This document shows, in pieces, positions 18,539-48,083 of a stretch of DNA of 64,000 nucleotides (the first letter of the stretch is position 1; every line of letters begins with the position of its first letter). The stretch spans positions 1-64,000 of the forward strand of contig JAKITK010000003.1 of the NCBI GenBank assembly GCA_021648125.1, read 5' to 3'. Source of the DNA: Lysobacterales bacterium (GTDB lineage Bacteria; Pseudomonadota; Gammaproteobacteria; Xanthomonadales; SZUA-36). The position numbers were made by a program, and so were the translations under genes. The notes below the pieces were generated by a model. It saw only the letters and a list, made by a program, of their open reading frames with translations. It was not told where the DNA came from and did no database searches.

Positions 18539-18571
18539 TGATGGCATCTTGTGACTTCTATGGAAACTTAT

Positions 18572-18802
18572 ATGCCCAGCCTAAGCGTGAGAAAATTAGA
18601 TGATGAGACTATTTTGAACTTGCGGATACAAGCCGCCAGACACGGTGTTTCAATGGAAGAAGAAGTTCGTCAAATAATAAAACAAGCCGTCAGCAGACCA
18701 GAAAACCTGGGTGATTTTGCACTTAGCTTGTTTTCTGAAACATATGACAACAAAGACTTTAAGCTTCCGCAGAGAGAGACTAGCTCTGCTCTAAAGTTCT
18801 AA
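18572..18802 (+). CDS. FitA-like ribbon-helix-helix antitoxin
   Basis: This protein of 76 residues starts MPSLSVRKLDDETI and continues LRIQAARHGVSMEEEVRQII, the ribbon-helix-helix signature of FitA/VapB antitoxins. ATG 18572 is preferred over the in-frame GTG 18551 and ATG 18560 because GGAA lies 6 bases before it and family members begin MASLxIRxLDD. It should inhibit the PIN toxin encoded 22 bp downstream and autoregulate the operon. The C-terminal tail (KDFKLPQRETSS) is the likely toxin-binding arm. Confidence 0.85.
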   Translation: MPSLSVRKLDDETILNLRIQAARHGVSMEEEVRQIIKQAVSRPENLGDFALSLFSETYDNKDFKLPQRETSSALKF

Positions 18803-18824
18803 AGTCATATTAGGGATTTATTCA

Positions 18825-19241
18825 ATGATTATTCTTGATACCAACATTGTTTCTGAATTCATGACCTCCCCACCCGCAAGTTCGGTGCTTAGTTGGTTGA
18901 ACAAACAGAATGTATCATCGCTATACCTATCAACAATTAGTATCGCTGAAATCGGCTTCGGTCTAAACACAATGCCAAGCGGTAAACGGCAAAGGTTGTT
19001 GCAACAGCGTTTCGAGGAATTTATTGCCACAGCATTTGAGGATCGGATACTTTCTTTTGATCAAGCCGCTGCCAGAATATATCCTGAATTGCTCACACAC
19101 CGCCGCAACATCGGTCGCCCTATGAGTAACTTTGATGGGCAAATTGCTTCCATTGCTCGCGCCAATGGCTTTGCCGTTGCCACACGGAATATAAAAGATT
19201 TTGAAGAATGTCAGCTTGAACTGATTAATCCATTTATATAG
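18825..19241 (+). CDS. FitB/VapC-like PIN-domain toxin
   Basis: This PIN-domain ribonuclease of 138 residues has the expected acidic metal ligands: MIILDTNIVSEF (Asp5), STISIAEIGFG (Glu), NFDGQIASIA (Asp) and ATRNIKDFE (Asp). The last motif and PMSNFDGQIAS match the FitB subgroup. Such toxins cleave RNA, often tRNA or rRNA, when freed from the antitoxin. It forms a two-gene operon with the FitA-like gene. The intact frame suggests an active pair. Confidence 0.9.
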   Translation: MIILDTNIVSEFMTSPPASSVLSWLNKQNVSSLYLSTISIAEIGFGLNTMPSGKRQRLLQQRFEEFIATAFEDRILSFDQAAARIYPELLTHRRNIGRPMSNFDGQIASIARANGFAVATRNIKDFEECQLELINPFI

Positions 19242-22261: not shown

Positions 22262-22807
22262 TCAAAAGTCAGCGGATCCGGACATTTTAAGCATTACCTT
22301 AAAACGCCTGAACGCATCTGCGTGGTTACCTAATGCATGAAATACCAGCTGTATTGTAGCGCCCTTGTGTAAGTGTAGCTTGGCAAAAACAATATTTCGA
22401 GTTTGCAGGGTAAAATCAGAACGAGAAATTATAAAAGTAGCGTCGGTACCGCTACGCCGTTGTCGTAATACTAGCGGCCCTGCCCCACCAATTTTCCCAT
22501 CGATTTTCCCATCGATTTTCCCATCGATTTTCCCATCGATTTCCCCATCGATTTCCCCATCGATTTCCCCATCGATTTGCCCATCGATTTGCAAATAGTA
22601 TTTTTGCTGTTTCTGCTGTTCCCGGAAAATCCCAAAGCCGGTAAAAAGGGAAATAACAGAAAGTAATCCAGTCCAGGCCCAGTCAAGTTCAGACTGGTAT
22701 GACCTGAAAGCAAGATAGAGCGGAACAGAAACAACGACCAGCATAAAAACCAGTAAATAACGGCGTGGAAAACCAGCCAGTAGATTAATTTTAGCGTCGA
22801 ATGTCAT
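22262..22807 (-). CDS. ygfX: YgfX/CptA-like membrane protein with an IDG-repeat insertion
   Basis: The protein has 181 residues from ATG 22807 (TTG 22810 is just upstream), against about 135 in E. coli. Two membrane segments (about 16-35 and 41-60) are followed by KQQKYYLQIDG, which aligns with the post-membrane strand of YgfX (LLMDGRLRW in E. coli). There the sequence runs into eight IDG[Q/E/K] tetrapeptides plus a degenerate IGG, then resumes with GPLVLRQRRSG and a polar tail. In E. coli YgfX (CptA) is an inner-membrane protein paired with SdhE and reported to affect MreB and FtsZ. The start overlaps the sdhE stop by 17 bp, the canonical gene order. Confidence 0.75.
   Translation of the reverse strand: MTFDAKINLLAGFPRRYLLVFMLVVVSVPLYLAFRSYQSELDWAWTGLLSVISLFTGFGIFREQQKQQKYYLQIDGQIDGEIDGEIDGEIDGKIDGKIDGKIDGKIGGAGPLVLRQRRSGTDATFIISRSDFTLQTRNIVFAKLHLHKGATIQLVFHALGNHADAFRRFKVMLKMSGSADF
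22493..22594 (-). repeat. 12-bp tandem repeat inside ygfX
   Basis: ATCGAT recurs at exactly 12-bp spacing at 22499, 22511, 22523, 22535, 22547, 22559, 22571 and 22583. The plus-strand unit is CCCATCGATTTT, with a C-for-T variant in the later units. The period is a multiple of three, so copy changes keep the reading frame and add or remove IDG[K/E] tetrapeptides. The sub-blocks of K units and E/Q units suggest stepwise duplication. Confidence 0.95.
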
Positions 22808-23003
22808 CAATCAAACGGGAAAATGCGGTGTTATCGCAGGTTTTCTGACCTGAAAGCCAGAGCCAGAGTATATCATCTTCGGTATCCAGCAGCAGCTCAA
22901 GAGAATCTCTCGAGGCCTCATCCAAGCCGGCGTAGTATGCATCAAGATAGTCATTTAAAAGGGTATCCAACTCCTGCATTCCACGCCGACTGCGCCAGCG
23001 CAA
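22791..23003 (-). CDS. sdhE: Succinate dehydrogenase assembly factor SdhE (SDHAF2 family)
   Basis: This small acidic protein has the RGxxE signature (RRGMQELD) essential for helping covalent attachment of FAD to SdhA, followed by DTEDDILWLWLSG. Length is 70 residues from TTG 23003; E. coli SdhE has 88. The frame is open back to the sdhB stop (23028-23030) and would read IIDLRLKKLRWRSRRG, which fits the family N-terminus better, but only ATT, CTG or TTG are available as starts. It follows sdhB directly, so reinitiation after the sdhB stop is likely. Confidence 0.88.
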   Translation of the reverse strand: MRWRSRRGMQELDTLLNDYLDAYYAGLDEASRDSLELLLDTEDDILWLWLSGQKTCDNTAFSRLIDDIRR

Positions 23004-23027: not shown

Positions 23028-23813
23028 TTACACACCTCGCCGGGTGAGCAGGAGTTTCTTTATTTCAGCAATCGCCTTGGCGGGGTTTAAATGTTTCGGG
23101 CAGGTATTGGTACAGTTCATGATGGTGTGACAGCGATATAACTTAAACGGGTCTTCAAGCTCATCCAAGCGTGTACCTGCATCCTCATCCCGAGAATCAA
23201 TAATCCAACGGTAAGCCTGTAATAAAACAGCGGGGCCTAAGTATCTGTCGCCGTTCCACCAATAACTGGGGCAAGATGTGGAACAGCAGGCGCAAAGAAT
23301 ACATTCATACAGCCCATCGAGGTGTTTGCGGGCTGCTACCGATTGCAGGCGTTCTTTATCTGCAGGTGTGGGGCTCTGGGTTCGCAGCCAAGGCTTGATG
23401 GAAGCATATTGGGCATAAAAATGGGCCATATCCGGAACCAGATCTTTAACCACTGACAGATGCGGTAATGGATAAATTTTAATATCACCAGAAATATCAC
23501 GGATCGCCGAAGTACACGCCAAAGTGTTGGTGCCATTGATATTCATTGCACAGCTGCCGCAGATGCCTTCGCGACAAGAGCGCCTGAATGTCAGGCTTTG
23601 GTCGATTTCGTTTTTTATTTTTATAATCGCATCAAGCACCATCGGCCCGCAGTTATCAAGGTCAATATCAAAACTATCAACCCGAGGGTTTTCGCCGGTA
23701 TCCGGATCCCATCGATATACCTTGACGGTCTTAATCCGCGCAGCACTTTCAGGGGCGGGATAATGCTGACCTTTAGATATTTTTGAATTTTCGGGTAGGC
23801 TTAACTCTGCCAT
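23028..23813 (-). CDS. sdhB: Succinate dehydrogenase iron-sulfur subunit
   Basis: This 261-residue subunit carries the [2Fe-2S] motif CREGICGSC, the [4Fe-4S] motif [12 protein letters not shown] and the last group [13 protein letters not shown] for the [3Fe-4S] centre. It passes electrons from SdhA flavin to ubiquinone at the SdhCD anchor. The N-terminus is about 20 residues longer than in E. coli. A good ribosome site (AAGGA) precedes the ATG at 23813. It is separated from sdhA by a 262-bp palindromic element, unusual inside this operon. Confidence 0.97.
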
Positions 23814-24099: not shown

Positions 24100-25893
24100 T
24101 TAATAAACTCGAGCTTTTGGTGGAACCACTTCAACTTCATCGGTCAGGGTATACATATGTACGGGGCGATACTGGATATCAACCTTGCCATTGGTATCAA
24201 CACTCAATAGCGAATGCTTCATCCAGTTTTCATCATCTCGTTCGGAATAATCCTCGCGTGCATGGGCGCCGCGGCTTTCTTTACGGTTTTCAGCGCCATA
24301 CATTGTAGCGATGGCATTTCCCAGCAAATTGCGTAATTCCAAGGTCTCGACCAGATCAGAATTCCAGATTAATGAGCGATCACTAACCCCCACATCACTA
24401 AATGAATCCCAGATCGCACTGATTTTATTACAGCCTTCCTGAAGGATTTCTTCAGAGCGGAACACGGCCGCATTCGACTGCATGGTTTTTTGCATGGCTA
24501 GGCGAATTGCAGATGTGGTATTAGGCCCATCGGCATAGCGTAAGCGATCAAAATCTTCCAATAAGGCATTCAACTTGTCCTGATCGGTGTCGCTGTGTTT
24601 GGTGTCCGGCTTGATAATTTCAGCACAGCGATGCGCAACTGCACGCCCGAAGACCACGATATCGAGCAATGAGTTGGAACCCAGGCGATTGGCACCATGC
24701 ACAGAAACACAGGCGGCTTCGCCAATGGCAAACAAACCGGGAACAACTGCATCAGGATCGTCGTCTTTAATATGCACCACTTCGCCGTGATAGTTGGTTG
24801 GTATACCGCCCATATTGTAATGGCATGTTGGCAATACCGGAATCGGGTCTGTGGTGACATCGACATTGGCAAAGATCATCGCAGACTCGGCAATTCCTGG
24901 CAGGCGTTCGTTAATCACATCCGTGCCCAGGTGCTGTAAATTAAGGAATATATGGTCTTTTTCTGGACCGACTCCACGCCCTTCCTGAATTTCCATAGTC
25001 ATTGCCCGGCTAACCACATCTCGGGATGCAAGATCTTTGGCGCTGGGTGCATAGCGTTCCATAAACCGCTCACCTTCAGAGTTGGTCAGAAAACCGCCCT
25101 CCCCGCGTACACCTTCAGTAATCAATGGTCCGGCCCCATATATGCCAGTGGGATGAAATTGTATGAATTCCATATCCTGCAATGGCAAACCTGCCCGCAG
25201 TGTCATGCCGGCACCATCACCGGTACAAGTATGTGCGGAGGTACAAGAGAAGTAAGCGCGACCGTAACCACCGGTGGCGAGAATAACTGCATGGGCCCGA
25301 AACAGATGCAATGTGCCTTCTGACAAATCCCAGGCGAGCACGCCCTTACAGGCACCATCCTCATCCATCAGCAAATCTAATGCGAAATATTCAATATAGA
25401 AAGTGGCGTCATGTTTTAGTGCTTGCTGATACAGCGTATGCAAAATAGCATGCCCAGTGCGATCAGCGGCGGCACAGGTTCGCTGTGCGGCGCCACCCTC
25501 GCCGAATTCTGTGGTCATACCACCAAACGGGCGTTGGTAAATTTTGCCTTCTTCAGTGCGTGAAAATGGCACTCCGTAATGCTCCAGCTCGATCACTGCC
25601 GGAACTGCCTCACGACACATATATTCGATAGCATCCTGATCACCCAACCAATCTGAACCTTTAATGGTGTCATACATATGCCAGCGCCAATCGTCCTCGC
25701 CCATATTGCCCAATGCTGCCGACATTCCTCCCTGGGCTGCCACCGTATGACTGCGTGTAGGAAAAACCTTGGTAAGGGCTGCTGTTTTCAGGCCAGCCGC
25801 AGCCAAGCCCATCGTGGCGCGCAAACCCGCACCACCGGCACCCACTACGATGACATCATATTTATGTTCTTGTACTTTATAAGCGTTCGACAT
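24100..25893 (-). CDS. sdhA: Succinate dehydrogenase flavoprotein subunit
   Basis: This 597-residue flavoprotein oxidises succinate to fumarate on the cytoplasmic side of the inner membrane. The dinucleotide-binding motif [16 protein letters not shown] is at about residue 16, [16 protein letters not shown] holds the histidine that binds FAD covalently, and HPTGIYGAG and [18 protein letters not shown] are active-site segments. The C-terminal [16 protein letters not shown] is typical. The stop codon sits in the TTAA that borders the palindromic element. The protein is the client of SdhE and probably of the SDHAF4-like protein encoded in the same operon. Confidence 0.98.
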
Positions 25894-25904
25894 TAATTCA
25901 ATCC

Positions 25905-26282
25905 TTACTGCAATGCCAGACGAATTACCGCCAGCACCCCGGTCACTGCACCCGCAAAAGCGAAAAGTTTTACCAGCAACTGCAAAATGGTTTCCAGCGG
26001 CTGTGAATGTACATAATCTTCGATAACCACCTGCATACCCAACTGCGCATGCCGAAGCATGCTGAGAATGAGTAGGATGGCAAGAATGCTATTTATTGTG
26101 TGGCCAAAAAAGGTCTGAATCACCTGGAAAGGCTGTCCGGCATAAACAATAATCACATACAACATCCAGATAACCAGCGGGATCAATAACAAGGCTGTAA
26201 CCCGTTGCCCCCACCAGTGCGAGGTACCAGATTTGGCACTGCCAAGACCACGGGCATGGGCTAAGGGGTGACGCATTTTCAT
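25905..26282 (-). CDS. sdhD: Succinate dehydrogenase membrane anchor subunit
   Basis: This 125-residue protein has three membrane segments. [17 protein letters not shown] near residue 80 carries the haem-ligand histidine and the conserved acidic-tyrosine pair near the quinone site. Its start overlaps the sdhC stop by 4 bp, implying translational coupling, and it lies 11 bp before sdhA. Confidence 0.95.
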
Positions 26283-26695
26283 AACCAGCCTCCCACTGTA
26301 GCAATGGTTAACGCAGATGCAATGAACGAGCAGGAGAGTATAAAAATTGCCGAGCGATTGGCTTGTTCAATCTTCATCATTTTCCCGGTATCCCAGATCA
26401 GGTGACGAAGACCATTGAAAAAGTGATAATAAATGGCAAAACACAAGGCAGATAACAACAGCATTCCGGGGGTAGATGCCAGCCAAAGCATTGCTTCATG
26501 GTAGGCTGCCGGACCTTGGCTGAGTGAAACCAGCCAGTAAATTAATAGTGACGAACCAAAAACTGACAGAAAAACCCCGCTTGCGCGGTGGGCTATCGAT
26601 AAAATGGAGCTCAGTTGCGGCTTATAATATGGGCCGATCATAAAAGGCGATATTGGCCTTTGATGTCGCTCTGGCGGGTTTTTTTCAGGTGCCAT
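26279..26695 (-). CDS. sdhC: Succinate dehydrogenase cytochrome b556 subunit
   Basis: This 138-residue protein has three membrane segments and the family motif SIAHRASGVFLS near residue 34; the Ser and Arg line the quinone site. YYHFFNGLRHLIWD supplies the haem-ligand histidine. A proline-rich polar N-terminus precedes it (RPISPFMIGPYY). It follows the SDHAF4-like gene by 28 bp. Confidence 0.95.
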   Translation of the reverse strand: MAPEKNPPERHQRPISPFMIGPYYKPQLSSILSIAHRASGVFLSVFGSSLLIYWLVSLSQGPAAYHEAMLWLASTPGMLLLSALCFAIYYHFFNGLRHLIWDTGKMMKIEQANRSAIFILSCSFIASALTIATVGGWL

Positions 26696-27151: not shown

Positions 27152-27991
27152 ATGAACAAATCAATAACTGAAGCCCCACTAACTACTCTGCTCTGTTTAA
27201 AAATACACGGCAGTGATGCCAGCACATTTTTACAATCCCAGCTGACTATCGATGTCGACCGGATCGAAAATGGCCAGTCGCGCATGGCTGCCTATTGTGA
27301 ACCTAAGGGCCGTGTCATTAGCACTTTGGTTTTGGCGTTCATTGATGGGGACTTTTATATGTTGATTCCTACAGTGCTCAAAGATGATGTGCTCAACACG
27401 CTATTAAAATATCGCTTTCGGGCAAAAGTTGAATTTGACCCGGCAGCCGATAGCCAAGTTTATGCCGCTACTGTAAATAGCACGGGCATAATTATTCCTC
27501 ACCCCCTGGATGAGTTACGGTCTTATCGTGTTGGTTCAGCCGGGCATGCTGATAAATCCGTCAGCACAAAGGAATTGGCTGCGTGGTCGATGGCAGATTT
27601 CGATAGCGGCATGGTGTGGCTGGATCAACGCACTAGCTGCCGCCATCTACCGCAATCACTCGGCCTGATAGCAAATAACGCCGTTGATTTTGACAAAGGC
27701 TGTTATCCTGGCCAGGAAATCATTGCCCGGCTTAAGTATCTAGGTAAGGCTAAACATACCATCCGAAAATTTCATACCCGCATCAACAGTGATGCGCTTG
27801 CTGCGGCTAATTATCTCCGTGATCATTCCGGTAAACGCCAGGGTCAACGCCTGAACAGCATCAGCCTCGACAGTAACGCCCATGGCCTAGCTGTGGTCAG
27901 CTGTGCGGCGCTTGCCACAGATAGCCGACTGTATTTTGCCGATGAAAATGCGCAACGAATAGGCGGGGATATTGTCTTCGATCAAGCTTAA
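27152..27991 (+). CDS. ygfZ: YgfZ/GcvT-like folate-binding protein (Fe-S cluster maintenance)
   Basis: This 279-residue protein has the YgfZ signature DKGCYPGQEIIARLKYLG (family K-G-C-Y-x-G-Q-E) near residue 187. The N-terminal FLQSQLTIDV and MAAYCEPKGRVISTL segments match folate-dependent aminomethyltransferase relatives. YgfZ uses tetrahydrofolate to support certain Fe-S enzymes, including the tRNA thiolase MiaB and succinate dehydrogenase. Divergence from an sdh operon across a Fur-box-like site fits this role. The cysteine of KGC is present. Confidence 0.92.
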   Translation: MNKSITEAPLTTLLCLKIHGSDASTFLQSQLTIDVDRIENGQSRMAAYCEPKGRVISTLVLAFIDGDFYMLIPTVLKDDVLNTLLKYRFRAKVEFDPAADSQVYAATVNSTGIIIPHPLDELRSYRVGSAGHADKSVSTKELAAWSMADFDSGMVWLDQRTSCRHLPQSLGLIANNAVDFDKGCYPGQEIIARLKYLGKAKHTIRKFHTRINSDALAAANYLRDHSGKRQGQRLNSISLDSNAHGLAVVSCAALATDSRLYFADENAQRIGGDIVFDQA

Positions 27992-47547: not shown

Positions 47548-47638
47548 GGAGAGGTGGCAGAGCGGTTGAATGCACTGGTCTTGAAAACCAGCATAGGTTA
47601 ATAGCCTATCGAGGGTTCGAATCCCTCCCTCTCCGCCA
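47548..47638 (+). tRNA. tRNA-Ser (anticodon UGA)
   Basis: A 91-nt gene including encoded CCA has acceptor arms GGAGAGG/CCTCTCC, D arm GTGGCAGAGCGGTTGAAT, anticodon stem CTGGT/ACCAG with loop CTTGAAA (anticodon TGA), a long variable arm (cataggttaatagcctatc) and T arm GAGGGTTCGAATCCCTC. The long variable arm is the mark of class II tRNA-Ser. It is followed at once by a terminator and two tail repeats. Confidence 0.98.
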
Positions 47639-47646
47639 ATAAACAA

Positions 47647-47672
47647 GCCTCGCAACTGCGAGGCTTTTTTAT
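47647..47672 (+). terminator. Terminator after tRNA-Ser (repeated at 47867-47892)
   Basis: GCCTCGC-AACT-GCGAGGC plus TTTTTT is a textbook intrinsic terminator 8 bp after the tRNA. Because it lies at the start of each 220-bp tail repeat, an identical copy occurs at 47867-47892. Confidence 0.95.
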
Positions 47673-47866
47673 TGGTGGAGTGAGGGATGAGAACCCTCGT
47701 GTAACGCGAAGCGTTACTGGGTTCGAAAAATTCGTCTGGAACGAATTTTCACGAGCAAAGCGAGCCCGAAGGGGGAGGCACATGGATGTGCCGAATAATC
47801 CCTCCTTCTCCGCCCTACAAGCCACCACAAAGACCAAACTAAACTCTCTAGATTCCGGATAATAAT
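47647..47866 (+). repeat. tRNA-Ser tail repeat, copy A (220 bp)
   Basis: The unit contains, in order: the terminator; ggtggagtgagggat plus gagaaccctcg (47674-47698), a degenerate inverted copy of the tRNA 3' arm; the hairpins gtaacgc-gaa-gcgttac (47701-47717) and aaaattcgt/acgaatttt (47727-47749); the dyad ggcacat/atgtgcc (47777-47792); and aatccctccttctccgcc (47797-47814), a direct copy of the tRNA 3' end with one change. It could fold into one multibranched RNA with the two tRNA-derived arms as the outer stem. A 60-codon frame crosses the unit but looks like a by-product of the structure. Confidence 0.93.
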
Positions 47867-48083
47867 GCCTCGCAACTGCGAGGCTTTTTTATTGGTGGAG
47901 TGAGGGATGAGAACCCTCGTGTAACGCGAAGCGTTACTGGGTTCGAAAAATTCGTCTGGAACGAATTTTCACGAGCAAAGCGAGCCCGAAGGGGGAGGCA
48001 CATGGATGTGCCGAATAACCCCTCCTTCTCCGCTCTACAAGCCACCACAAAGACCAAACTAAACTCTCTAGATTCCGGATAAT
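47867..48083 (+). repeat. tRNA-Ser tail repeat, copy B (217 bp)
   Basis: This is a tandem duplicate of copy A, offset by exactly 220 bp, with only two base changes, both in the tRNA 3'-like arm (aacccctcc for aatccctcc, and cgctctac for cgccctac). The near identity indicates recent duplication or conversion. The unit again begins with the terminator stem and ends gattccggataat. Confidence 0.93.

Follow-up and report, generated by a model that had tools for sequence, protein, structure and literature searches.

Genetic context of the ygfX-like gene

The DNA analysed here is a 64,000-nucleotide stretch from a Lysobacterales bacterium (the window), which carries genes in the order sdhCDAB-sdhE-ygfX on its minus strand. 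The two membrane subunits, encoded by sdhC (26279-26695) and sdhD (25905-26282), both match PF01127. They are followed by sdhA for the flavoprotein subunit (24100..25893, PF00890 and PF02910), sdhB for the iron-sulfur subunit (23028..23813, NCBIfam succinate dehydrogenase iron-sulfur subunit, E 3.5e-112) and sdhE for the flavinator of succinate dehydrogenase (22791..23003, exact start uncertain; PF03937 Sdh5, E 6.4e-19). The last of these genes is the ygfX-like gene (22262..22807, minus strand), an open frame of 181 amino acids that runs from an ATG at 22807 to a TGA at 22262. Its start overlaps the end of sdhE by 17 nt, as compared to 17 nt and 23 nt in the relatives G003 and G002. A divergent gene on the plus strand (27152..27991) contains a GCV_T domain (PF01571, E 1.2e-8) and, from its position, we take it to be ygfZ-like. 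In E. coli K-12, ygfX overlaps sdhE and ygfZ is located divergently beside sdhE-ygfX.

The ygfX-like product comprises two predicted membrane helices and a subsequent, mainly beta domain. A sequence-only reading of the locus had proposed that it is YgfX-like, and both gene position and alignment bear this out. The features shared with YgfX/CptA (PF07254, Cpta_toxin) are the position directly after sdhE with an overlapping start, the membrane hairpin and, behind it, a soluble domain that has an xDG turn (seen in the alignment and in low-confidence models), and a conserved arginine-rich stretch ahead of the C-terminal helix. The window protein differs in that it carries eight additional IDG-type turn units and has no match to the curated PF07254 profile, either above its cut-off or at E up to 1. 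The G003 and G002 orthologs are likewise unmatched by the profile, which finds nothing at E up to 0.01 in the genome of the window or in those of G001, G002 and G003. It matches 21 of the 25 aligned family proteins at E up to 1, the best at 4.2e-11. Since a PF07254 match is missing, the membership of the window protein rests on gene position and alignment, by which it is YgfX-like rather than a profile-confirmed member. Pfam matches to TrAA12, DUF4131 and Bactofilin all fall below their cut-offs and were taken as chance; the weak Bactofilin match covers residues 85-107, on the repeat itself.

The ygfX-like gene is under purifying selection. Comparison with the G003 ortholog outside the array gives a dN/dS of 0.148 over 146 codons (dS ~1.1), which answers the concern, raised with the original proposal, that the frame might not be translated. 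Decay of the gene, with the array as a sign of relaxed constraint, is very unlikely. Decay would be consistent with the lack of PF07254 matches in the window protein and both orthologs, and with a rise in dN from 0.118 before the array to 0.205 after it. However, low dN/dS values are seen before the array (0.17) and after it (0.109, where dS is near saturation), the frame is free of stops and frameshifts, and the overlap with sdhE is kept.

Organization of the 12-bp array

The array is located at positions 22484..22591 on the minus strand and contains nine 12-bp units, in a register set by the G003 ortholog. The units encode, in this order, QIDG twice (CAAATCGATGGG), EIDG three times (GAAATCGATGGG), KIDG three times (AAAATCGATGGG) and KIGG once (AAAATTGGTGGG). 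The eight in-frame units counted from the sequence alone are correct for IDG, the ninth unit being IGG, and the 12-bp period indeed preserves the reading frame. Tandem Repeats Finder (TRF) reports the array at 22491-22590, with a period of 12, 8.3 copies, 97% matches and a score of 172. Allowing up to three mismatches, a two-unit pattern is found 8 times in the window, compared to 0.02 times on average in 100 shuffles.

The Q, E and K variants are grouped in blocks along the array, as expected from stepwise duplication. The eight IDG units vary at only 1 of 12 positions and show no synonymous differences over ~18.7 synonymous sites (eight x 2.33), which suggests that the array is young. Judging from these units, the present array would postdate the split from G003 by far, or would be held uniform by turnover. 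The uniformity could also reflect selection or conversion instead of youth.

Near-identical tandem units that lie within a gene and have a length divisible by three are shared with the in-frame coding minisatellites (VNTRs) of bacteria. While copy-number variation is the defining feature of VNTRs, the array is known from one sequence, and its nine units versus one constitute a gain between species.

We consider it extremely unlikely that the number of units, or the array as a whole, is an assembly error in this metagenome-derived contig. Common short reads are longer than the 108 bp of the array, and the units differ in blocks, a pattern that a collapse would not create. On the other side, the draft genome consists of 111 contigs, and tandem repeats are a known cause of assembly errors, as stated in an excerpt of PMC6868369.

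The array also has a strong predicted tendency to fold. Two adjacent units in single-stranded DNA are predicted to form a 6-bp ATCGAT stem with a 6-nt loop (-3.6 kcal/mol). The z values are -5.4 and -4.6 for the whole array as single-stranded DNA on the two strands, and -5.98 for the array and its flanks as RNA. In addition, each of the nine units contains at least one run of three or more G. While the folding and the G-runs would fit selection on the nucleic acid (hairpins in mRNA or DNA, or G-runs) and not on the peptide, the predicted folding is a direct consequence of repeating a unit with an ATCGAT palindrome. The array comes late in the final gene observed in the sdh run, and a similar element is carried by none of the relatives. 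Selection at the nucleic-acid level is thus barely credible.

Probable origin of the array from a conserved turn

The locus was compared across 39 family genomes. The sdhB gene was found at threshold in 36 of them, and a ygfX-like frame follows sdhE in 33, including the window; 25 of these frames were aligned and eight more were read (L033, L035, L055-L060). The genomes left out are G027, G028 and G036, with sdhB below threshold, G001 and G017, whose contigs stop at sdhB, and G008, in which no ygfX-like frame was found after sdhE. A search of G001 with the neighbouring aminotransferase, aimed at the missing end of its operon, gave a best identity of 37%, which is not the neighbour.

The nearest ortholog belongs to the same genus (G003; the Oceanospirillales MAG SZUA-51, QIKG01000070.1, encodes the same protein) and contains a single unit. 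It has KYYLRIDGSAALIL where the window protein has KYYLQIDG, the further units and GAGPLVL, a net gain of 96 bp or eight units. The single unit of this ortholog indicates that the eight units were gained in the lineage of the window. The array is absent from all 32 other family genomes with a readable ygfX.

A [D/N]G turn occupies the position of the array in 20 of the 25 aligned YgfX-like proteins, the window protein included. In the MAFFT alignment, the MDG of E. coli K-12 YgfX falls into the same columns as the xDG of the other family members, in agreement with the earlier proposal that the repeat sits where E. coli YgfX has MDG. Judged by this alignment, the array unit is the YgfX family's own turn motif. 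The sequence-only reading knew of no other YgfX with such a repeat; there is none in the family set, and the titles and abstract openings of the papers searched on YgfX/CptA/SdhE and on in-frame or tetrapeptide repeats mention none.

Predicted structure of the array region

AlphaFold models of the window protein and the G003 ortholog were built from two-sequence alignments of these two proteins and are of low confidence, with mean pLDDT values of 52.5 and 54.3. Both share the same low-confidence layout of two helices and a strand that begins at residue 69. In the model of the repeat-free ortholog, the hairpin closes directly, with strands at residues 69-75 and 79-86. In the window model, the corresponding strands are placed at residues 69-74 and 112-118 with coil between them, and pLDDT is below 50 across nearly all of residues 75-110. 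The array follows the two predicted helices (residues 15-38 and 43-64, low confidence), as expected from its proposed placement after the membrane hairpin. The models suggest that the array may form a loop that bulges from a beta-hairpin turn just behind the membrane hairpin. A beta ladder, which had been put forward for the repeat, is not what the model gives, since the array appears as coil; with pLDDT below 50, the model is too weak to exclude a ladder.

Tandem arrays in the genome of the window

The genome of the window is rich in tandem arrays compared to two relatives. At a score of at least 60, the TRF listing has 29 rows for this genome (418 kb sampled), whereas G002 (236 kb) and G009 (275 kb) have 4 rows each. 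This corresponds to ~69 rows per Mb versus 17 and 15 per Mb, a four- to fivefold difference between non-random samples (the first 20 contigs at up to 20 kb each, plus the window here and contig C110 in G002) in which some rows overlap one array. With the window excluded, 25 rows in 354 kb remain, compared to 8 in the 511 kb of G002 and G009 together (p 5e-5).

Nine of the rows have a unit of 6-24 bp and at least 4 copies, compared to one such row in G002 and none in G009. Three of the nine are found in stop-free frames of at least 170 amino acids, with periods of 12, 15 and 18 bp. Those with periods of 10, 11, 11 and 13 bp lie in frames of 63 to 157 amino acids, and one 15-bp and one 21-bp array are outside any open frame. 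The genome would thus appear to make tandem arrays often. A 15-bp array of 11 copies (GCAGCCAAGACCAAA) is located within a 465-amino-acid open frame on another contig (L065:14481-14647, G000:C4), a further coding array whose period is divisible by three.

Loss of repair genes was considered as a cause of the array density and rejected, as none of four genes sets this genome apart. Among the 39 family genomes, the MutS_V domain is found in 32, the exonuclease I C-terminal domain in 36, RecJ_OB in 36 and SbcD_C in 1. MutS, RecJ and exonuclease I (in two contig pieces) are matched in the genome of the window, and SbcD is absent, as in 37 others. G009 has no MutS match and G002 no RecJ match, yet both are low in arrays. 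The single genome with the SbcD C-terminal domain is G001; the domain was matched in the E. coli control. The two exonuclease I pieces, G000:C20:2-649 and G000:C95:40401-40691, split the C-terminal domain, and one of them is located at a contig end, which would fit an assembly break or a second partial copy.

Similar arrays in other genomes

The exact two-unit pattern has no other site in the genome of the window. With up to two mismatches, it occurs in one other of 299 genomes of the order, at a single site with two mismatches. PF07254 has matches in 145 of the 299 genomes at E up to 0.01. Among the matches listed the longest spans 396 nt, so none of these has an insert of the size of the array. 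This result covers genomes with a match (the other 154 have none), and the profile, which misses the window gene, could also miss genes similar to it. A degenerate four-unit pattern was unmatched in viral contigs.

A scan of contigs with six peptides of the window protein, DGKIDGKI among them, yielded 179 pattern matches and confirmed 4 loci, counts from which the window's own record is possibly excluded. One of these loci is the G003 ortholog. The other three encode unrelated proteins that carry I/V-D/E-G-K arrays, in MAGs of Clostridia (L039), Mycobacteriaceae (L040) and Spirochaetes (L041). A six-frame scan of the compared loci for at least three [IVL][DENG]G-X units returned only copies of the window array and the same three loci. 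All three share 12-bp units encoding I/V-D/E-G-K with the window, and the L040 unit GGGAAAATCGAC is one base away from the window unit GGGAAAATCGAT. They differ from the window protein in that no homology is seen beyond the array. The L040 protein is of the epimerase/PEP-utiliser kind and carries its array at the extreme end; for L039 and L041, no Pfam match is significant. We infer that these arrays are of independent origin. As the loci are unrelated but have similar units, tetrapeptide arrays seem to arise independently in unrelated genes. The IDGK array at L040:4001-4111 closes the Mycobacteriaceae MAG protein.

Expansion of the turn and its possible role

The array is best explained by recent slippage that expanded a permissive turn in frame in a repeat-prone genome, within a translated YgfX-like protein in which the array is tolerated and not tuned. 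We assign this reading a probability of about three in four. The codons of an X-I-D-G turn would have multiplied from one to nine in this lineage by replication slippage or unequal exchange. The 6-bp ATCGAT hairpins with 6-nt loops between neighbouring units may favour slippage, and frequent tandem-array formation in the genome may contribute. The array may have been retained since its period is divisible by three and since, bulging from a tight turn behind the membrane hairpin, the extra length would be of little harm. The protein presumably keeps its YgfX role beside SdhE and succinate dehydrogenase, and a copy-number-dependent function is unnecessary for this explanation.

The sequence-only reading proposed that copy number could tune the length of an exposed linker. 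In a rival explanation along these lines, the copy number would act as a tuning knob, with gain and loss of units altering the length and charge of an exposed loop and thereby the binding of YgfX to SdhE or other partners. Arrays of near-identical units are the kind expected to be unstable. The 12-bp period preserves the frame, and the Q, E and K variants shift the charge along the array. However, a single sequence carries the array, the nearest ortholog has one unit and none of the 31 other readable family genomes has an array. Arrays are in excess elsewhere in the genome too, which calls for no cause specific to this gene, and the roles of YgfX towards SdhE and the cytoskeleton are disputed. 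The tuning of an exposed linker is favoured only by the frame-keeping length of the unit, and we regard it as very unlikely. Its extension, in which a slippage-variable YgfX beta turn would serve as a heritable length and charge dial on SdhE-YgfX and adjust the assembly of succinate dehydrogenase between cells of one population, is hardly likely.

The sequence-only reading had tied YgfX to both cell shape and SdhE. Both ties are disputed by results on Shewanella YgfX, for which an excerpt of PMC8621075 reports no toxicity and no interaction with FtsZ, MreB or YgfY. The same excerpt describes a toxin-antitoxin role as reported for E. coli and Acinetobacter and as unconfirmed in Serratia. Given these disputed roles, it is uncertain how much a change in YgfX would matter physiologically.

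With a slippage expansion as the preferred reading, the case shows the birth of a coding minisatellite, in which the sister species has one unit, the window has nine, and the unit is a conserved protein turn. An insertion of 32 residues may be tolerated at the turn that follows the YgfX membrane hairpin, which could make this site useful for tagging a poorly understood neighbour of SdhE. The array alone changes nothing that is known of SdhE or succinate dehydrogenase.

Other features of the window

On the plus strand, a small frame and the 138-amino-acid frame that follows it at 18551-19241 resemble, by eye, a toxin-antitoxin pair, presumably with a PIN-type toxin. A 220-bp unit is present in two copies with 99% matches at 47647-48083 and begins 9 bases past a tRNA-Ser gene (47548-47638). 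Positions 1911-1984 contain a 13-bp array of 5.8 copies (AGAAACCCGAGCA). A 63-bp duplication on another contig (L074:15953-16074) has the word AAACCCGAGCA in common with this array.
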